Virus record (IMG/VR): IMGVR_UViG_3300025849_000121
Span: 1 to 33,256 of that record
Length of the DNA: 33,256 bases
Strand: one strand, 5' to 3'
Source: a virus
Shown here: piece after piece, positions 3,457 through 31,976 of the stretch
How positions within the stretch are numbered: position 1 is the stretch's first letter
How the letters are laid out: each line of letters begins with the position of its first letter
Translations under genes and position numbers: made by a program
The notes under the pieces: generated by a model
What the model was told of the DNA's origin: nothing
The model's database searches: none
What the model saw: only the letters and a program-made list of their open reading frames with translations

Positions 3457-4200
3457 TTATCCTAAGTTTAACTTTTGCATTTCATTTAATGCATCTTGTC
3501 TTATACCACGAAAAATTATCCCGCGGCGAATTTGATTGGTTTTATTTGGCATAATACTATGCAGCACATTACCATAAAAACAACCGAACCCGCCCAAAGA
3601 AACCGGTGGTTGAACATAATTATTTTCAAAGAAAGCTTTATAAAAAGGTTTTTCTTCATTCCAATTAGTAGTATTGTATCTATATCTATGCGTTCCAGGT
3701 ACATATGCAGTAGCACCGTTTTCTATTGTAAAGTCAACTAAAGGAATCATAAAGGTAACACTTAAAGGACCTTTATCTAAATATTTAGACATTTCGCATT
3801 CAAGTTTTTGTGGCCACAAATATGGCGCATCTAAGTGGGGCTGAATAGGATAATCATGCTTGTAATTAGACATAATATAACGGTTAGTTAATTGCCAGCC
3901 CCAATCTTTATTCCCAAATAAAACATCACAAATACTTTTTAATAACGGAAGCATGATTGTATTAATAAATAAATTATTTTTTGGAGTTTGTGCCCAATGA
4001 CAAGCCCAATCAATATTTTTAATTTTAGCTTCTGATAATACATCTGGATTATTTAACCACCGTCCATTACCATGACCCACAAAAGGCGGGAGTTTACTTG
4101 CAACTTTATTAAATGCAATTAAATCTTCGGTATTAAATGCATTGTCAACAATAGCAATACCATCTTTATCTAAATCCGATAAAAAATTTTCTGTTAACAT
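3457..4200 (-). CDS. PhyH-like Fe(II)/2-oxoglutarate dioxygenase
   Basis: The 247-aa protein shows the facial triad of the phytanoyl-CoA dioxygenase family: H122-x-D124 in QPHLDAP and a distal H214 (GNVLHSIMPN). R225/R226 is placed to bind 2-oxoglutarate. The segment NGATAYVPGTHRYR is the usual beta-strand before the distal His. The family hydroxylates lipids, small molecules or nucleobases, and the substrate cannot be read from sequence. It sits between two unknown small genes, 5 nt after the 117-aa gene, with ribosome site AGGCG. Confidence 0.82.
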   Translation of the reverse strand: MLTENFLSDLDKDGIAIVDNAFNTEDLIAFNKVASKLPPFVGHGNGRWLNNPDVLSEAKIKNIDWACHWAQTPKNNLFINTIMLPLLKSICDVLFGNKDWGWQLTNRYIMSNYKHDYPIQPHLDAPYLWPQKLECEMSKYLDKGPLSVTFMIPLVDFTIENGATAYVPGTHRYRYNTTNWNEEKPFYKAFFENNYVQPPVSLGGFGCFYGNVLHSIMPNKTNQIRRGIIFRGIRQDALNEMQKLNLG

Positions 4201-9322: not shown

Positions 9323-10222
9323 TTATCTATTGTATTGCGAGCGTACCATTGTATTATGTTGTGTGTCTGTAGATAGTGATCGCATTGCTCTATTATTATC
9401 AGGTAATACTGAATCTTTAATTTGTAAGTCTTCTTTGTATTCGCCGCCTGGGATGAGTACAGTATAATATGATTCAAGTATCGGAAGATTTGCTAATGCT
9501 TCAAAAGCAGCATTTTGTTGAGTTTGGTCAATAAGGCTATTACTAGCTCCTTCGACCCTCATTCGACTTTGCATTTCTTCATTTTCCATTTCTTCCAGAT
9601 CTTTTTCTGGATCTTCTTCTTCTTCTTTTATTTCAGCTTCAGTCTGGGATTCTAACCATGTTGTATAATATGGATCGTCTTCTGATAGTTCTGTTAATCC
9701 CATATCTTGTAAATATTTATATAATGCATCTAAAAAACCGGGACAAGATGGATCATTTAATGGACTTATACAGCTAATAGCATTTTCACCAATATCCATT
9801 TTATATGAATAAATTAATGTTGAATTGCTAATAGATCCATCACCTTCTATTTCCATAGACCCATCACCCCATAATTCTGCATTTGAGCCAGGAAAGGTAT
9901 ATAACTTTCGAATATTTCCGCCATTTCCACCAGACCAATCATCTGTTTTTTCGAAAATATATCCATCGCCAGTAGAATTTTCATTTCGAATATGTACTTT
10001 GGCGTCAGCGTCCGGATCTTTGTTCATTGTATATTGATATATCACTCCATTAATTTGAAGAGAAATATTTGGAGCAGAATGATCTGGTAAAATACCAGTC
10101 ATATTCCAAGATAATCCATTGGACGTTACATTATTGGTAGTTCCGTATATTGTTTCAGAGAAGGAGTAAGAGGAGCAAACCGCCCACCACACCAACGCCA
10201 CCAAGAGTGCTCTTAGTGTCAT
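9323..10222 (-). CDS. Large exported protein with acidic segment
   Basis: The 299-aa protein has a signal peptide (LLVALVWWAVCSSYSFS). A beta-rich N-half is rich in Asn, Gly and Asp (GDGYIFEKTDDW, WGDGSMEIEGDGS). It has two Cys (AISCISPLNDPSCPG), a strongly acidic helical linker and a Gln/Asn-rich tail. It overlaps the preceding gene by 68 nt, but the start at 10222 has AAAGGTGA. I know no function. The position points to a virion or surface protein. Confidence 0.68.
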   Translation of the reverse strand: MTLRALLVALVWWAVCSSYSFSETIYGTTNNVTSNGLSWNMTGILPDHSAPNISLQINGVIYQYTMNKDPDADAKVHIRNENSTGDGYIFEKTDDWSGGNGGNIRKLYTFPGSNAELWGDGSMEIEGDGSISNSTLIYSYKMDIGENAISCISPLNDPSCPGFLDALYKYLQDMGLTELSEDDPYYTTWLESQTEAEIKEEEEDPEKDLEEMENEEMQSRMRVEGASNSLIDQTQQNAAFEALANLPILESYYTVLIPGGEYKEDLQIKDSVLPDNNRAMRSLSTDTQHNTMVRSQYNR

Positions 10223-10736
10223 CAGACATCACCTTTCTTTTTTTATCAGAATCTGGTCGTAAATGCTTATTATCAGGCGAATTCCACGCGTCTTTTGCTT
10301 CTGAACCAATCAAACCGTCAAATGGACATGGTGTACCAGCATTCATCATTGCAGTAAACACACGATTATCTTCACACATAACTGATACTGCCGCAACTTT
10401 CATACCCATATCATACAAAGTTTTAGCGTTTTTTAATTTCTCACAATTCATATCACGGACTGTTTTACCGGCCGAAATACCCAATATCTGAGTTTGTACA
10501 GCACCAGCTACACCTATTGTACATAAATCAGAATTACTCCCATTAATAGAGGGAGAAATTGCGGAAGGTGGCGGAGATTTAATTGTAGCATTAGAATTGC
10601 TATCAGATTTTACTGTGCTATTATTAGTATTATCTGTATATATTGTATCATCTGTAACAGTATCTGTGGTGTCTTGTGCAAATACCGCAGTCGATAAACT
10701 CAATACTACTAATGTAAAAAACATTTTTTTAATCAT
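10155..10736 (-). CDS. Exported protein with Asn/Ser-rich repeats and C-terminal membrane anchor
   Basis: The start at 10736 (MIKKMFFTLVVLSLSTAVFA, a signal peptide) has AGAGG upstream; an ATG at 10784 lacks one. The 193-aa product has a low-complexity stretch (TDNTNNSTVKSDSNSNATIK), a proline spacer, then a Cys-containing domain (DLCTIGVAGAVQTQ, RDMNCEKL, VMCEDN, GTPCPFDG). It ends in GGVGVVGGLLLLLLL. It is first in the late operon behind a TATAAATA box. The Asn/Ser repeats recall curlin-like sequences, but this is weak. Confidence 0.72.
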   Translation of the reverse strand: MIKKMFFTLVVLSLSTAVFAQDTTDTVTDDTIYTDNTNNSTVKSDSNSNATIKSPPPSAISPSINGSNSDLCTIGVAGAVQTQILGISAGKTVRDMNCEKLKNAKTLYDMGMKVAAVSVMCEDNRVFTAMMNAGTPCPFDGLIGSEAKDAWNSPDNKHLRPDSDKKRKVMSDDTKSTLGGVGVVGGLLLLLLL

Positions 10737-10793
10737 ACGAAATAATCCTCTAATAATTATATGCATTCGATTTTTAATTTTCATTCATATTGT

Positions 10794-10801
10794 TATTTAT
10801 A
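10794..10801 (-). promoter_or_regulatory. T4-type late promoter TATAAATA heading the exported-protein operon
   Basis: An exact TATAAATA on the minus strand lies 57 nt before the chosen start at 10736 and just beyond the porin terminator. It probably drives the whole run down to 6202. Confidence 0.65.
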
Positions 10802-10868: not shown

Positions 10869-11663
10869 TTAGAATGCAAAGCTTAATTCAATTGAAGGAG
10901 AAAAATCTTCACTATTTAAATTATAATTTGCGCCTGTGGTAAGCTCAGCGCCCGCAATACCATATACAAATTCGCCACCAATATTTTGTAGCATATCAGT
11001 GTCGTCACCATTAATATATGTTGTAATTACAGATTGCTTTGCTACAAGCTCATAACCTATTGCTGTAGTGTCTACATCATAAGATACTGCACCGCCAACT
11101 GCGGCAACACCAAGATCAACACCAGTAACACCGGCGCCAAATACAGTATTTTCAGTATTTAAGTTATAATCAGCAGCGGCAGTAATTTCAATTCCAGCTA
11201 CGGATGGGAGTACAATTGCGCCCTGTACATTGCTAATATCTGTAATATCGGCAGCAATATCAGTAAATCCGATAGCCGCAGAAATTGCACCCATATTTAC
11301 TTGTACAGATTCAGCCATTGCTGGAGCAGTAAGTGTTTGCTCGCCTTCGGCACCTGGCATTACACCATTGTCATCGCCAATTGCAATATCGATACCGGCT
11401 ACTTGTGTGCCAATTGTCCAATTATCAAGAGTAACACCATTTCCGTCTGTTGCAGAAAAGTCAAGGTTTACAGTTGAAATACCAGCAACATCAATACCAA
11501 GATCGAATGTTGGAGTTGCGGCCCATTTATCTGCAGCGGTTTCTGCAAATGTTAAAACAGCTTTACCAGATAATGTTGGGCCATATGGCAGTACTGTAGT
11601 TTCAGCATATGCTGCACCAGCAAATCCTGTTACAAGTGCAGATGTGATAAGTAAATTACGCAT
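10869..11663 (-). CDS. Porin-like outer-membrane beta-barrel protein
   Basis: The 264-aa product has a signal peptide MRNLLITSALVTGFAGAAYA. The mature part is Gly/Ala/Thr/Asp-rich with alternating strands (VAGIDIAIGDD, AGIEITAAADYNLNTE, ELTTGANYNLNSED). It ends in the aromatic outer-membrane insertion signal SIELSFAF. Low complexity and few charges suit an alphaproteobacterial-type porin. Upstream in-frame TTG codons lie in the tmRNA, so ATG 11663 is the start despite a weak site (AGAAAGAA). It could be a nutrient channel or a receptor-related decoy. Confidence 0.72.
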   Translation of the reverse strand: MRNLLITSALVTGFAGAAYAETTVLPYGPTLSGKAVLTFAETAADKWAATPTFDLGIDVAGISTVNLDFSATDGNGVTLDNWTIGTQVAGIDIAIGDDNGVMPGAEGEQTLTAPAMAESVQVNMGAISAAIGFTDIAADITDISNVQGAIVLPSVAGIEITAAADYNLNTENTVFGAGVTGVDLGVAAVGGAVSYDVDTTAIGYELVAKQSVITTYINGDDTDMLQNIGGEFVYGIAGAELTTGANYNLNSEDFSPSIELSFAF

Positions 11664-11707
11664 TTCGTATATTCTTTCTGATTTTATAAAAATTTTAAAT
11701 ATTAAAT

Positions 11708-12030
11708 ATGCCACTTTTCTGTTGCTAAGCAAGTGGCCAGCTCCCTGTGTTTATGCAGCTAGTGCATAACCAGATGGTGCAAAGTTATTATTTGCAGTTA
11801 TAGTGTTTGATCTATACGCGATCACCCGGTTAACTCCACTTCCACTTTCACACCTGTCGATCCTAATTCAGCCCCATCAAAAACACTTGAAACTTCTCCA
11901 TAGCATCAGGTAGCTAAATCCTTATCTACTTCATCGAATATAGGTCGTCACCTATCAAGTGCTTATGGTGGAGCTGTCGGGATTCGCACCCGAGTCCAGT
12001 ATGTGTCCACGTCGCTTCAACGTTAACAAA
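11708..12030 (-). ncRNA. ssrA: Circularly permuted two-piece tmRNA
   Basis: The acceptor piece comes first on the minus strand (about 12030-11966). It has T-arm TCGGG-TGCGAAT-CCCGA, the acceptor strand CAGCTCC (11976-11970), discriminator A and an encoded CCA ending at 11966. A spacer of about 90 nt follows. The coding piece then begins GGGGCTG at 11875, which pairs with CAGCTCC over 7 bp, and continues AGGATCGACAGG. It carries the tag frame and ends with a GCCACTT/AAGTGGC hairpin (11710-11736). GTTAAC and GTGTG/CACAT matches between the pieces could form P2. This order is the alphaproteobacterial permuted form. Outer ends are approximate. Confidence 0.93.
11751..11795 (-). other. tmRNA proteolysis-tag reading frame
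   Basis: The frame begins with resume codon GCA (11795-11793), encodes ANNNFAPSGYALAA and stops with TAA (11753-11751). The ALAA end is the usual ClpXP-type degron; the Ala charged on the tmRNA would precede it. Confidence 0.93.
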
Positions 12031-12034
12031 GATA

Positions 12035-12062
12035 CTTATAAAAATTTAATGCAAGTTGTAAC
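12035..12062 (-). promoter_or_regulatory. Probable tmRNA promoter
   Basis: GTTACA (12062-12057), a 16-nt spacer and TATAAG (12040-12035) would start transcription near 12028, right at the predicted acceptor piece. Read-through could also supply the porin-like gene, for which no better promoter is seen. Confidence 0.45.
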
Positions 12063-14089: not shown

Positions 14090-14097
14090 TATTTATA
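14090..14097 (-). promoter_or_regulatory. T4-type late promoter TATAAATA
   Basis: An exact TATAAATA on the minus strand, 28 nt before the start at 14062. Confidence 0.6.
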
Positions 14098-25242: not shown

Positions 25243-25431
25243 TTAGCATACTCCCTTAAACATTTCTTTTCGGCCCTCGATGCCAAGTTGAGAATCAAAA
25301 ATATCTTTGAGACTTATAAGCATCATTGATGCTAGCATTAGAATTTCTTCGCGGCCATCACACATTAAAATTGCTTCATCAATGGGGCGAGATAATTCTA
25401 GCATTTTAATTTTTACATTAGAGTCGTTCAT
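25243..25431 (-). CDS. 62-aa helical hypothetical protein
   Basis: The start at 25431 overlaps the end of the kdsB-like gene by 14 nt, so it is coupled. The protein is helical (IDEAILMCDGREEILMLASMMLISL) and Met/Leu-rich. No domain is recognised. Confidence 0.66.
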   Translation of the reverse strand: MNDSNVKIKMLELSRPIDEAILMCDGREEILMLASMMLISLKDIFDSQLGIEGRKEMFKGVC

Positions 25432-26113
25432 TATTCCATCTTTCTGCGTCTTGAGGAGTGTTGATTTCTATTCCATTAAATTCTGTTAATAATACACCAA
25501 TATCCCATCCAGCTTTAAGCCAGCGCAACTGTTCCAAACTTTCAACGCGTTCTTCTTGTGGAATTGTTAATGTATTATATAGACCTAAGGCATTTCGAGT
25601 GTATCCATAAATGCCAAGATGCCAATCACCATAACCAGTCATGCCGCGGCCAAACCATAAAGCTTTATCCCCAGCACGAACCAATTTAACAGTATTAGGA
25701 TCTTCCTGTTGCTCTTTTGGCATTTTAGCTGCCATAGTAGTAACATTATAATGTTGAAGATGCCATTTAGTTTTTTCAATCATATGCTGCGTTACGTCTG
25801 GCATATCACCTTGAACATTAATAAACTGATCATAATGCCCAATGTGCTTAGTAAACATTTGGTTTGTAATTGCACCAGCACATCTTTCGGTACCGTTTTC
25901 ATATTTTGATTCTTGATCTATCCAGCATGCTCTTGGGCCAAGCATATTAAAGACTCTCATATCATCAGTTAAAACATAGGTATCTAACTGAGATTTTTTG
26001 CATTCTGCATATACCCGCATAACCATTGTCATACCACCAAGGTCTGTTAATGGTTTACCTGGAAATCGGGTGCTATGGAATCTAGCTGGAATTAATATTG
26101 CGGTTTTAGTCAT
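25418..26113 (-). CDS. kdsB: CMP-Kdo synthetase-like cytidylyltransferase
   Basis: The 231-aa protein has IPARFHSTRFPGKPL (8-22), YVLTDD, SKYENGTERCAGA and INVQGDMP, the nucleotide- and metal-binding motifs of KdsB. It would activate Kdo (or a related 3-deoxy sugar) with CTP for lipopolysaccharide or capsule. It pairs with KdsA at 29066-29857; KdsD and KdsC are not in the window. The start overlaps the sulfotransferase stop by 8 nt. Confidence 0.85.
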   Translation of the reverse strand: MTKTAILIPARFHSTRFPGKPLTDLGGMTMVMRVYAECKKSQLDTYVLTDDMRVFNMLGPRACWIDQESKYENGTERCAGAITNQMFTKHIGHYDQFINVQGDMPDVTQHMIEKTKWHLQHYNVTTMAAKMPKEQQEDPNTVKLVRAGDKALWFGRGMTGYGDWHLGIYGYTRNALGLYNTLTIPQEERVESLEQLRWLKAGWDIGVLLTEFNGIEINTPQDAERWNNERL

Positions 26114-27336: not shown

Positions 27337-27366
27337 AAAAGCGGTGAATTTCGGTTCATCGCTTTT
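27337..27366. terminator. Bidirectional terminator
   Basis: AAAAGCGGTGAA (27337-27348) pairs with TTCATCGCTTTT (27355-27366) with one G-T pair and a TTTCGG loop. A T-run follows on the plus strand (TTTT) and an A/T-rich tail on the minus. It serves the converging genes at 26960-27316 and 27365-28147. Confidence 0.78.
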
Positions 27367-28147
27367 AATCTTTTAATTCGTACTTAAGGGCCGGACCGGA
27401 TTCATATCCAATAATACTAATATCATCCGGAACAAAACTATAAATGTCTGTTTGATCAGTAAATTTAATTATTGGTTTAGCATCTAATATAGGGCGAGCA
27501 ATTTGTTCTTTTGCATTATCAATATGCTCTTCATAGATATGGGCGTCGCCAACAATCATAGTAATTTTACCAGCTTTTTTATTAGATACTGATGCAAAAC
27601 ACATAAGCATTACAGCCGCAAAAACTGCATCACTTGGCACACCAATCATCCAATCACCACTTCTTTGGACCCATAGCATATCTACAATACCATCGTGCTC
27701 ATAAAATTGATAATTATGATGACAACATGGCAAATTCAAATCATTAAGATTATCTGGGCGCCAGCCACTAATAACCATGCGGCGGTCATGTGGATTATTA
27801 ATAAGGCTATCAACCACAGCCGCCATTTGATCAACACCATTAAAATCGCGCCAGGCATTGCCGTAATCAACATTAATAGATCCATCGGCATTTGCCCACA
27901 GATCCCAGTAATTACAACCCCATTTACGGAAATCATCAATGTGTTTTGGTCCGCGGATCATTGCGGCATATTCACCAATAACACCAGCATAAAACATTTT
28001 ACGGGTAGTTAGTAAAGGAAATTCTGTTTCTAAATCAAACTCAAGTGTTTTAAATGGAAGGCTGAGCGTAGTGCCATTACGCCCTTTCCGCTCATAACCA
28101 TTATTTAGAATTTCTTCAGTAACTTTTAAAAACTGCGCTTCAAACAT
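27365..28147 (-). CDS. ThyA-family enzyme, probably dCMP hydroxymethylase
   Basis: The 260-aa protein has the ThyA fold: FPLLTTRKMF, catalytic Cys142 in LPCCHHNYQFY, RSGDWMIGVPSDAVF and GDAHIYEEH. In thymidylate synthase the position after RSxDxxLGxPF is Asn (E. coli Asn177), which selects dUMP; here it is Asp173. T4 dCMP hydroxymethylase also has Asp there. The likely reaction is dCMP to 5-hydroxymethyl-dCMP, for modified phage DNA. The start shares a base with the Nmad1-like gene. Plain thymidylate synthase remains the alternative. Confidence 0.85.
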   Translation of the reverse strand: MFEAQFLKVTEEILNNGYERKGRNGTTLSLPFKTLEFDLETEFPLLTTRKMFYAGVIGEYAAMIRGPKHIDDFRKWGCNYWDLWANADGSINVDYGNAWRDFNGVDQMAAVVDSLINNPHDRRMVISGWRPDNLNDLNLPCCHHNYQFYEHDGIVDMLWVQRSGDWMIGVPSDAVFAAVMLMCFASVSNKKAGKITMIVGDAHIYEEHIDNAKEQIARPILDAKPIIKFTDQTDIYSFVPDDISIIGYESGPALKYELKD

Positions 28148-28548: not shown

Positions 28549-29085
28549 TTAAAGTGGTGTTGGGTTTTTAAAAAAGTTTTCTATATTTACAACATATTTT
28601 GCAAATTTACCAGGAATCTTTCTTTTAATTATATCAGAGGCTTTTGCAATACCAACAAAAGTGTGGGTAACAATATCCCCTTCTTGCAATAGAATAGCTG
28701 TATTACGGTTATCTTTATAGAAAAGAATATGCGACACAAGGCCAGCCTTTACTGCAGCTCTGAAGTTGTCTTTAATTGGAAACCAAATTGAAGAAATACA
28801 TTTATTATCGATGCGCATATCAGCAATATTATAATCTGGCCAAAAATTAGCTGCAGTCCCGTATTCTTCGACAGTAGTATCTTTCGGTTTTACAAGTTTA
28901 TTGTGGAGTAGCCACCATTCCAATAGTTCATAATCAATTCCAAGTTCCCCCAATTCATAGTTAGATTCACTTGCTTTTTTATTGCGGTACTCAATAAAAT
29001 CTTTATCTACAACAATTTTAGCATTATTAATAAGAAGATTTAATTTACAAGCAATTTCATTATAATCAATCAAAGTAGGGGACAT
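28549..29085 (-). CDS. 178-aa hypothetical protein
   Basis: The start ATG 29085 (MSPTLIDYNEIACKLN) has GGAG 8 nt upstream and overlaps the kdsA stop by 20 nt; a TTG farther up is less likely. The protein has many Trp, Tyr and charged residues (EWWLLHNKLV, DYNIADMRIDNKCISSIWFP) and a basic C-terminus (KRKIPGKFAKYV). No domain is recognised with confidence. Confidence 0.7.
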   Translation of the reverse strand: MSPTLIDYNEIACKLNLLINNAKIVVDKDFIEYRNKKASESNYELGELGIDYELLEWWLLHNKLVKPKDTTVEEYGTAANFWPDYNIADMRIDNKCISSIWFPIKDNFRAAVKAGLVSHILFYKDNRNTAILLQEGDIVTHTFVGIAKASDIIKRKIPGKFAKYVVNIENFFKNPTPL

Positions 29086-29857
29086 AAGAATACTCCACAA
29101 TATCGTGTAAAATGTCTTCAAAATCTTGGAGGTTTACCATATTAGGCCCATCAGATGGAGCATTATCCGGATTAGGGTGCACCTCTAAGAAGAAGTTAGT
29201 AACACCCAAAGCAGCGGCAGCACGAGTAAGACCTGGAACGTAGTCACGATTACCACCAGACGAGCTGCCGTGTCCCCCAGGCTTCTGGCACGAGTGGGTA
29301 GCATCAAATACGATCGGTACCCCCAAGTTATCAAGCATGTACTGAAGGCCATTAAAATCGACCACAAGATTATTATACCCAAAACTAGTTCCCCTTTCTG
29401 TAATCCATACTTCTTTAGCGTCTTCTGTTTTGCTAAGGATGCCTGTTATATCCCATGGCGCTAAAAACTGACCCTTTTTAATATTAATAATTTTATCAGT
29501 CATACAAGCTGCACTAATTAAATCTGTCTGACGACAAAGAAATGCCGGAATTTGAATTACATCAACTGCTTCATTGTATTTGTAAGCTATTGCAGCAATA
29601 TCAGTTGTAGAATGCACATCTGTTAAAATTTTAACATTAACCGTTTCTTTTAATGACAAAAAGTCAAGCATTGTGGGTTCAAATCCCACACCACGTATAC
29701 CATCAATACTTGTACGATTAGCTTTATCATAGCTAGCTTTAAAAATATATTCAACATCATATTTTGCACAAATATCAGCACAATGCTCAGCAATATCTAA
29801 TGACATTGAAAGATTTTCATGTTGGCATGGACCGGCAATAATTCGTAAAGATTCCAT
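29066..29857 (-). CDS. kdsA: Kdo-8-phosphate synthase
   Basis: The 263-aa protein has IAGPCQHEN, FKASYDKANRTSIDGIRGVGFE, DATHSCQKPGG and EVHPNPDNAPSDGPNM. These are the substrate- and metal-binding motifs of KdsA. The Cys in IAGPC, with the later His, Glu and Asp, marks the metal-dependent class. It joins phosphoenolpyruvate and arabinose-5-phosphate. Slightly short of the usual 270-285 aa. With KdsB it brackets Kdo synthesis. Confidence 0.9.
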   Translation of the reverse strand: MESLRIIAGPCQHENLSMSLDIAEHCADICAKYDVEYIFKASYDKANRTSIDGIRGVGFEPTMLDFLSLKETVNVKILTDVHSTTDIAAIAYKYNEAVDVIQIPAFLCRQTDLISAACMTDKIINIKKGQFLAPWDITGILSKTEDAKEVWITERGTSFGYNNLVVDFNGLQYMLDNLGVPIVFDATHSCQKPGGHGSSSGGNRDYVPGLTRAAAALGVTNFFLEVHPNPDNAPSDGPNMVNLQDFEDILHDIVEYSYVPYFD

Positions 29858-30063: not shown

Positions 30064-31158
30064 TTAATTCCACCCAATCTTTTCCCACGGAACATCTTTA
30101 TTGCCAAAATGACCGTACGTACAGTTTTTACTATATTCATAAAAATTAAACATATCAAATCGGTCAATAATTCCTTTAGGGCTCAGATCAATTTCTTTAC
30201 GAATAAACTTTTCAATACTTTTACTATAACCATTGGATTCTACATAAATGCTGATAGGTTGTTTAACTCCGATTGCATAGCTTAATTGAATATTACACCA
30301 GTCAGCCATTTCATCTGCTACAACATTTTTAGCGAGCCAACGTGCCATATAAGCCGCGCTACGATCTACTTTCGTGGGGTCTTTACCACTAAAAGCACCG
30401 CCGCCGTGGGGAGCAAAGCCCCCATAAGTATCAACAATAATCTTACGTCCAGTAACACCAGCATCCCCATCAGGGCCGCCAATAACAAAATTACCAGTAG
30501 GATTAATATGCCATACAGTATTTTCATCAATCATATCTCCTAAACCACAATGCAATACGGCACCCCTTGCAAGGGTCCTTGCAGTTTGAATTTCATTAGC
30601 GGCATGTTGAGTACTAATAACAATTTGGTCTACCCGTTTAGCTATACCACCTTCGTATTGTATACTAATTTGTGATTTTGCATCGGGGCCTAATATATTA
30701 TCTAATAATCGAATTTCTTTCAATTCTTTAAGAATTTCATGCGCATAATAAATAGGAGCCGGTAAATAGGCATCATTATCATTACAAGCATAGCCAAACA
30801 TAATACCCTGATCCCCAGCCCCAAAATCATCGGTGCCTAATGCAATATCAGCGCTTTGTGCATGGATTTCATTGTAAATTTTTAGATTATCCCAATGAAA
30901 TCCCTCTTGTTCATATCCAATTTTTTTTACTGTATTACGAACAATTTCTTTAACTTCTTCGTTGCTCACATTAAAGTTTTTTACTTCACCGGCCAACGTT
31001 ACCATATTAGTAGTTGTAAGAGTTTCAACAGCAACACGAGTTGTCTCATCGCCGGCGCGCAATCCCGCATCAACAAGGGCGTCACTGATTTGGTCTGCTA
31101 CTTTATCGGGGTGGCCGTCACTAACACTTTCACTAGTAAAAATATAATTTTGATTCAT
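30064..31158 (-). CDS. metK: S-adenosylmethionine synthetase
   Basis: The 364-aa protein has SVSDGHPDKVADQISDAL, GAGDQGIMFGYA, GGPDGDAGVTGRKII and GGGAFSGKDPTKVD, the signature motifs of MetK. Only slightly shorter than host enzymes (about 380-400 aa), all core motifs are intact. It makes SAM from methionine and ATP, which the radical-SAM enzyme and any methylases would use. It follows the nucleotidyltransferase-cupin gene by 2 nt, in one operon. Confidence 0.95.
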   Translation of the reverse strand: MNQNYIFTSESVSDGHPDKVADQISDALVDAGLRAGDETTRVAVETLTTTNMVTLAGEVKNFNVSNEEVKEIVRNTVKKIGYEQEGFHWDNLKIYNEIHAQSADIALGTDDFGAGDQGIMFGYACNDNDAYLPAPIYYAHEILKELKEIRLLDNILGPDAKSQISIQYEGGIAKRVDQIVISTQHAANEIQTARTLARGAVLHCGLGDMIDENTVWHINPTGNFVIGGPDGDAGVTGRKIIVDTYGGFAPHGGGAFSGKDPTKVDRSAAYMARWLAKNVVADEMADWCNIQLSYAIGVKQPISIYVESNGYSKSIEKFIRKEIDLSPKGIIDRFDMFNFYEYSKNCTYGHFGNKDVPWEKIGWN

Positions 31159-31160
31159 AA

Positions 31161-31976
31161 TTATTTCTTTTTTCTAAGTGGTAGGGCAATATCCACATCA
31201 TCATCAATACATTGTTTACCATATTGTAATTCTACTATATGCGAAGCAATTTTAAATGGATTACTTGCTTCATACCAAGATTTAGCTGGAATAACTTGTG
31301 GTGGATCTTGTGGAGTTAATATTTTTTTATCTAAACCCCTATGTAGGTTTAGCTGAGTTTGCCCCTGTATTTGTGTCCAAAGTTCACTTCTATCTTTATG
31401 GCGTTGATTCATTAATGACTTTTTAGGCAAAATCATTAATTCTCTTAATTTATAATGTAATCCTGTTTTTGGATCCACACCTTCAGCTAATATTCTATAC
31501 CAGCCCCATTCCTGTAAAGTTTTTGCGCTTCTCCATTCATCAAGAATTTCAAAAGATGAATTAACTACTTCTCTGCCCACATCAAAAACAAAGGTTACTT
31601 GGGGGTTATCAATAAGTGGTTTATTATCTTCGGGTGGTTTGCTATAACCATTAGCACATATAATATCAGCTTTAGGATATTCTAGCATTATTTGTTGAAT
31701 AAATTTAAGAGCAGTATCATCAGCATCCATATCAGAGGTAAAACAAACTGCTTTATTTACAAAACCAAGTTCCGCAATAATAGCATGTCTATCTTCTATA
31801 TCAAGAAACGGCCGACCCCGACGTCGGGTCAACCGCTCATTAGAATGAATTCCAACAATAAGCATATCGCCAAGGAGAGCTGCTTCTTTTAAGTATTTAA
31901 TATGTCCTTTATGTAATGGGTCAAACCCACCTGTTGCAAGAACAATTTTCTTTTTTCTAAACGGTTTTATACGCAT
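31161..31976 (-). CDS. Nucleotidylyltransferase-cupin fusion protein
   Basis: The 271-aa protein has two parts. Residues 1-140 are an RfaE-domain-II/cytidylyltransferase domain (ATGGFDPLHKGHIKYL, HxGH at 22-25; SNERLTRRRGRPF). Residues 157-262 are a type II mannose-6-phosphate-isomerase cupin (LPKKSLMNQRHKDRSELW, then IPAKSWYEASNP and VELQYGKQCIDDDVDI). The first would make an NDP-sugar, the second isomerise or bind the sugar. It overlaps the primase-like gene by 20 nt. The fusion is unusual; the fusion frame is continuous. Confidence 0.8.
   Translation of the reverse strand: MRIKPFRKKKIVLATGGFDPLHKGHIKYLKEAALLGDMLIVGIHSNERLTRRRGRPFLDIEDRHAIIAELGFVNKAVCFTSDMDADDTALKFIQQIMLEYPKADIICANGYSKPPEDNKPLIDNPQVTFVFDVGREVVNSSFEILDEWRSAKTLQEWGWYRILAEGVDPKTGLHYKLRELMILPKKSLMNQRHKDRSELWTQIQGQTQLNLHRGLDKKILTPQDPPQVIPAKSWYEASNPFKIASHIVELQYGKQCIDDDVDIALPLRKKK

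Follow-up and report, generated by a model that had tools for sequence, protein, structure and literature searches.

A probably functional two-piece tmRNA gene on a T4-like phage fragment, and its relatives in other phages

Circularly permuted transfer-messenger RNAs (tmRNAs), which consist of two separate pieces, have been reported in 53 phages among 18,146 genomes, 50 of these phages being marine or aquatic, including the isolate Melnitz (Buchholz et al. 2022, PMC9004378). A tmRNA database of 2025 holds 79 bacteriophage sequences (PMC11915505). Here we describe a gene of this kind in the IMG/VR virus record IMGVR_UViG_3300025849_000121, of which the whole stretch of 33,256 nucleotides was analyzed and is referred to below as the window. 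The sequence-only reading of this DNA had proposed a phage-encoded, circularly permuted tmRNA at positions 11708-12062 and had considered a phage copy unusual; the proposal is borne out, whereas the rarity holds only in part, given the 53 phage genomes reported in 2022. Judging from the sequence, we estimate a probability of about 0.7 that the gene encodes a working two-piece tmRNA that would rescue ribosomes during infection together with the SmpB protein and the alanyl-tRNA synthetase (AlaRS) of the host.

On its minus strand, this T4-like phage fragment has a complete gene for a circularly permuted tmRNA, recognized by ARAGORN and by two Rfam models. ARAGORN reports a single permuted tmRNA on the minus strand at 11660-12059, with the tag ANNNFAPSGYALAA. 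The Rfam model RF04321 (tmRNA_permuted) matches over its full length with 112.4 bits (E 2e-21, above the cut-off of 47), and RF01849 (alpha_tmRNA) also matches over its full length, with 82.8 bits (E 3e-21, above the cut-off of 50), so that both kinds of check suggested from the letters alone, by covariance model and by ARAGORN, gave a clear hit. In the covariance-model matches, the acceptor piece precedes the coding piece, which is the permuted order. The encoded CCA, the 7-bp acceptor stem and the tag frame ending in ALAA, a protease signal followed by the stop UAA, had been noticed beforehand, and each was found; the acceptor stem contains the G3-U70 alanine identity pair. The span proposed earlier was near the mark, but its strand, the minus strand, had not been stated, and the covarying helices, from which we placed the borders of the mature pieces, put these at 12027-11966 and 11875-11710. 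The gene is laid out as follows.

11966..12027, minus strand: acceptor piece, with P2 strands, 5' hairpin, T arm, acceptor 3' strand and encoded CCA (Rfam models and alignment)
11876..11965, minus strand: intervening sequence of 90 nt, presumably removed from the mature RNA; its ends, AAGCACUUGA and UCAAGUGUUUU, pair
11710..11875, minus strand: coding piece, with the acceptor 5' strand GGGGCUG, D region, P2, pseudoknot-1 (PK1) region, tag frame and terminal pseudoknot
11796..11824, minus strand: PK1 region; its first stem, UGAUC/GAUCA, covaries, and the region has no counterpart in short relatives
11751..11795, minus strand: tag reading frame, with resume codon GCA, encoding ANNNFAPSGYALAA, stop UAA (ARAGORN and Rfam)
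11710..11743, minus strand: terminal pseudoknot, built around the conserved loop GCAACAGAA, with covariation in each of its two stems (helices 6 and 7)

Covariation was counted over a 41-pair structure in 20 relatives, after their acceptor and coding pieces had been joined. In this alignment, 96.5% of the cells are paired and compensatory changes, with substitutions on both sides, occur at 21 of the 41 pairs (93 cells), values that are reached in none of 500 shuffles; when helix partners are slid against each other, pairing falls to 36-49%. The G3-U70 pair is invariant in all 20 aligned sequences. The distal helix of P2, in which GUUAAC at the 5' end of the acceptor piece pairs with the coding piece, is 100% paired with compensatory changes, and this pairing in every sequence suggests the position of the mature 5' end; the proximal P2 helix is 91% paired, again with compensatory changes. 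Both stems of the terminal pseudoknot covary, as does the first stem of PK1 in the 13 relatives that lack a local insertion; the second PK1 stem received no support from covariation among the relatives. Within a locus, the two ends of the intervening sequence form a pairing with a mean energy of −13.1 kcal/mol, compared to −6.9 kcal/mol for ends swapped between loci. Cofolding of the two pieces of the window gene alone gave an interaction energy inside the shuffled range and was uninformative. The 54 nonredundant tags predicted by ARAGORN include 52 different sequences, yet AA is the ending of 53 and LAA that of 46, counts that may partly reflect the preference of ARAGORN itself for tag ends of this type. 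As far as sequence comparison can tell, this is the pattern expected of selection for a working tmRNA. Unusually long phage tags occur in L080, L021, L047, L075 and L112, that of L080, AKATVNNGEFNFVDFGALNKFAATEDFALAA, comprising 31 residues.

Near relatives by gene content (L024, L049, L051, L061, L073, L090, L091, L107, L003, L079 and L036) carry reduced tmRNAs that lack about 35 nt, corresponding to the PK1 region, as well as the hairpin of the acceptor piece, and retain the acceptor stem, P2, the tag and the terminal pseudoknot. The tags of these reduced forms are intact, for example ANDNFAPSGYALAA; a tag-less reading of loci with a coding piece of 115-117 nt was rejected because the tag is kept and it is the PK1 region that is absent. 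ARAGORN misses every reduced form except L036, to which it assigns a different, unlikely tag, suggesting that current counts of phage tmRNAs are too low. The forms without PK1 represent natural minimal tmRNAs. Loss of PK1 in some relatives would also be compatible with a decoy or inhibitor, that is, an RNA that blocks trans-translation of the host, for which the tag-less tmRNA of phage DS6A offers a phage precedent (PMC11915505). We consider such a role very improbable because the PK1-less relatives retain a full tag and because the tag frame, CCA, G3-U70, P2 and the terminal pseudoknot are all under selection.

At least 119 IMG/VR contigs carry the permuted tmRNA signature GGGGNTGAANTAGGATCGAC, a scan pattern that selects for similarity. 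In a first maximum-likelihood tree, with 77 phage and 63 alphaproteobacterial rows, all phage sequences except that of the long-branched contig L015 lay together to one side of a branch supported at 100/100; in a second tree, which omitted L015 and included six isolate phages, the same held for all 82 phage rows (support 100/93), where both trees are unrooted and do not include cyanobacterial or betaproteobacterial tmRNAs, and four contigs from two metagenome-assembled genomes (MAGs), L183, L184, L186 and L187, were classed as phage by their phage-type promoter and low score. The RF01849 scores of alphaproteobacterial hosts range from 143 to 317 bits, compared to 82.8 bits for the window gene. 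Together, the separation in the trees and the low score indicate that the gene was not recently taken from a sampled host group. The suggestion that the tmRNA points to the host class is accordingly weak: the phage copies form a lineage of their own, and Melnitz, which has an alpha-like permuted tmRNA, infects a gammaproteobacterium (PMC9004378). Prophages that use ssrA as their integration site are known to contain pieces of this gene (discussed in PMC9004378), so that a passenger or remnant, either a captured host gene or an attachment-site copy decaying in the phage, could be envisaged. The completeness of the gene, its strong covariation, the lack of an integrase among the genes scanned, and the lack of any sampled host copy close to it in the tree make this explanation extremely unlikely. 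The genome of Rhodobacteraceae bacterium Water_Bin34 (L160) contains a single host tmRNA of the ordinary kind; several tmRNAs of the phage type, with low scores, are located on further contigs (L184, L186 and L187), which we take to be of phage origin and to have been binned together with the host, or co-binned.

The tags, too, differ between the phages and the sampled hosts: the window gene encodes ANNNFAPSGYALAA, tags of Rhodobacterales are mostly ANDNRAPVALAA-like, and those of SAR11 are ANDELALAA or ANESYALAA. A search for a matching host tag with ANNNFAP, a degenerate pattern for the beginning of the window tag, yielded 52 GTDB contigs, in the fetched stretches of which ARAGORN found no tmRNA, so that this search gave no host whose tag begins in this way. 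Such divergence could signify redirected tagging, whereby the phage RNA would compete with the host tmRNA and a tag of the phage's choosing would change the protease or adaptor, or recycle host proteins to amino acids, the latter having been proposed by Buchholz et al. (PMC9004378). However, the ALAA end, the part most used by ClpXP, is kept (46 of the 54 tags end in LAA), and host tags vary at the same middle positions; we therefore regard redirected tagging as unlikely.

Upstream of the acceptor piece lies a candidate promoter.

12033..12040, minus strand: T4-late-promoter-like box TATAAGTA, with one mismatch to the consensus TATAAATA; the exact box is present in 43/83 relatives

Transcription from T4 late promoters starts about 6 nt downstream of the box, and the start expected in the window is 12027, where the acceptor piece begins. 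When loci were aligned on the GGAC of the T arm, with box starts 39-48 nt upstream, exact ATAAATA was found at a fixed position in 43 of the 83 nonredundant phage loci, compared to 0.65 expected (dinucleotide shuffles, at most 3), and at the same position in 0 of 65 hosts. In 33 of these 43 loci, a TTGACA-like box is located exactly 17 bp upstream, such that sigma-70 and late elements are fused; other loci have the late element alone, in some cases as AATAAATA or GATAAATA. The late promoter of cyanophage S-PM2 is NATAAATA, and overlapping early and late promoters have been described for RB49 and S-PM2 (PMC2984593); the box of the phage tmRNAs fits both this late promoter and the overlapping arrangement. 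Across the window, ATAAATA is depleted (9 seen, 32 expected), with copies directly before gene starts at 14097(−), 10801(−) and 5395(+), one of which belongs to the next gene for a signal-peptide protein.

10794..10801, minus strand: TATAAATA, the same late-type motif, before the next signal-peptide gene (open reading frame 10155-10784)

A late sigma factor is annotated in the Kyanoviridae phage C48C1; the gene for a late sigma factor of the gp55 type is not on the window fragment. At the level of the group, the T4-type late element is clear from sequence conservation, whereas the box of the window is a candidate only, and a simpler reading of a fused site would be that it is just a strong sigma-70 promoter.

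The gene that follows the tmRNA encodes a predicted outer-membrane protein.

10869..11663, minus strand: outer-membrane protein of 264 aa that has a signal peptide and ends in phenylalanine; start 46 nt past the tmRNA

The structure model of this protein has 16 strands (mean pLDDT, the predicted local confidence, 76) and its best structural match is to porins (Rhodobacter blasticus porin, E 8e-9, TM-score 0.58); we regard the product as a predicted 16-strand porin barrel. In 23 fetched loci, of which 15 are nonredundant, the tmRNA is followed by outer-membrane-type proteins of 115-266 aa that are joined by sequence similarity. More generally, under a simple hydrophobicity rule made for this analysis, the next gene is signal-peptide-like in 30 of 75 nonredundant loci compared to 60 of the 454 next genes that served as controls (p 2e-7). 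The porin and its kin have no tblastn match in named phages and no sequence match in Pfam or PDB; among 142 alphaproteobacterial genomes, the family was found once, on a MAG contig with a phage-type tmRNA just upstream, and so looks like a phage family. The short distance that separates many of the tmRNAs from signal-peptide or outer-membrane genes, and the lack of a T-run terminator after the last hairpin between the tmRNA and the porin gene, would be expected if the tmRNA were a structured leader, its promoter and RNA chiefly driving or stabilizing the mRNA of the downstream outer-membrane protein. We find this very improbable as the main role, given that other genes lie downstream in more than half of the nonredundant loci and that a leader leaves the conservation of the tag, CCA and G3-U70 unexplained.

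Under the interpretation that we favor, a tmRNA working in ribosome rescue, transcription would proceed from the T4-type late promoter, which is fused with a sigma-70 promoter in many relatives and could thus be active throughout infection. Host tRNA-processing enzymes would cut the precursor into two pieces that remain base-paired; host AlaRS would charge this RNA, and host SmpB would deliver it to ribosomes stalled on broken mRNAs. The ribosomes would then go back to phage translation, and the stalled chains would be tagged and destroyed by host proteases. The transcript probably continues into the porin gene, which would result in joint expression of the tmRNA and the porin. T4 infection leaves the host SsrA intact (PMC9697503), in keeping with rescue being needed in infected cells. 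Several observations weigh against this interpretation. Phage C48C1, which among named phages is nearest in its UvsX and helicase, lacks a permuted tmRNA, indicating that phages of the wider group can do without the gene. No SmpB was found in the window and 39 other viral records (40 in total, many of them fragments), so that host SmpB is presumably used and the phage gene is host-dependent. Nearly all alphaproteobacterial hosts examined have a tmRNA of their own, and the box of the window has one mismatch and no clear −35 box. On balance, the sequence evidence supports the earlier view of the gene as phage-encoded, permuted and probably functional.

More tentatively, and at somewhat less than even odds, permuted tmRNAs may long have been phage genes, forming one tmRNA lineage that has dispersed through aquatic phages and is characterized by late or fused promoters, frequent coupling to outer-membrane genes, varied tags and reduction by loss of PK1. 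If so, these phages would run their own ribosome rescue in step with remodelling of the outer membrane, beyond carrying a captured host gene. On the question of why phages carry a tmRNA, the promoter element, the separation from hosts and the outer-membrane link give testable predictions concerning expression time, co-transcription and complementation.

The window itself is a linear IMG/VR record with genes for UvsX, a DnaB-like helicase and a primase. The UvsX and helicase are 71% and 66% identical, respectively, to those of C48C1, and the order of the genes for an epimerase, UDP-glucose dehydrogenase, UvsX and the helicase agrees with that phage. The window is thus a fragment of a T4-like (Kyanoviridae-like) phage, with the family placement provisional because no structural genes were identified on the fragment. 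A second IMG/VR metagenome contig (L037) has near-identical genes and surroundings, with the same tmRNA and the same tag. Elsewhere in the window are genes for a phytanoyl-CoA dioxygenase family protein (3457-4200), a CMP-sugar cytidylyltransferase (KdsB-like; 25418-26113), thymidylate synthase (27365-28147), a DAHP-synthase-family enzyme, possibly KdsA (29066-29857), S-adenosylmethionine synthetase (30064-31158) and a nucleotidyltransferase with a mannose-6-P isomerase domain (31161-31976). Together with the porin, these metabolic genes suggest cell-surface remodelling.

Among described systems, the SsrA of Melnitz (MZ577095, Kyanoviridae; PMC9004378) resembles the window gene as a two-piece permuted tmRNA of a T4-like aquatic phage on the same side of the tree. 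Directly before its acceptor piece, Melnitz has TTGACA-17-TATAAATA (17 bp gap), the fused form, and although its tmRNA has been assigned to an early promoter (PMC9004378), the sequence indicates that this promoter may also be late. Melnitz differs from the window in its sequence and tag (ANDNYVPVDYALAA), in its annotated neighbors, which are hypothetical proteins with no porin, and in a reported glutamine riboswitch; no such riboswitch was found near the window gene at permissive thresholds. Alphaproteobacterial two-piece tmRNAs (RF01849, Caulobacter type) share the permuted order, the G3-U70 acceptor stem, the GCAACAGAA loop and an AN...LAA-type tag; unlike the window gene, those of the hosts score far higher with RF01849, mostly have a longer coding piece, and in no case have an ATAAATA box. 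The tmRNAs of the roseophages DSS3_MAL1, MD18, RpoS-V10 and RcXuper are likewise permuted, and occur in phages of alphaproteobacteria, but form their own group (100/100) on the phage side, with tags such as ANTNAAPMEMAIAA, a coding piece that is about 50 nt longer after the tag, and no ATAAATA box. In the record stretches examined for RpoS-V10 (L274), RcXuper (L275), MD18 (L276) and Phosso (L273), the permuted tmRNA is unannotated. The tmRNA of mycobacteriophage DS6A is also phage-borne but has no tag reading frame (PMC11915505), whereas the window gene has a full one. In the open-licence literature, we found no account of the phage grouping at this scale, of a late-type element fixed at the acceptor start, of the link between tmRNA and outer-membrane protein genes, or of forms without PK1, although priority is not certain. 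The window gene itself adds one more phage two-piece tmRNA to a kind already published.
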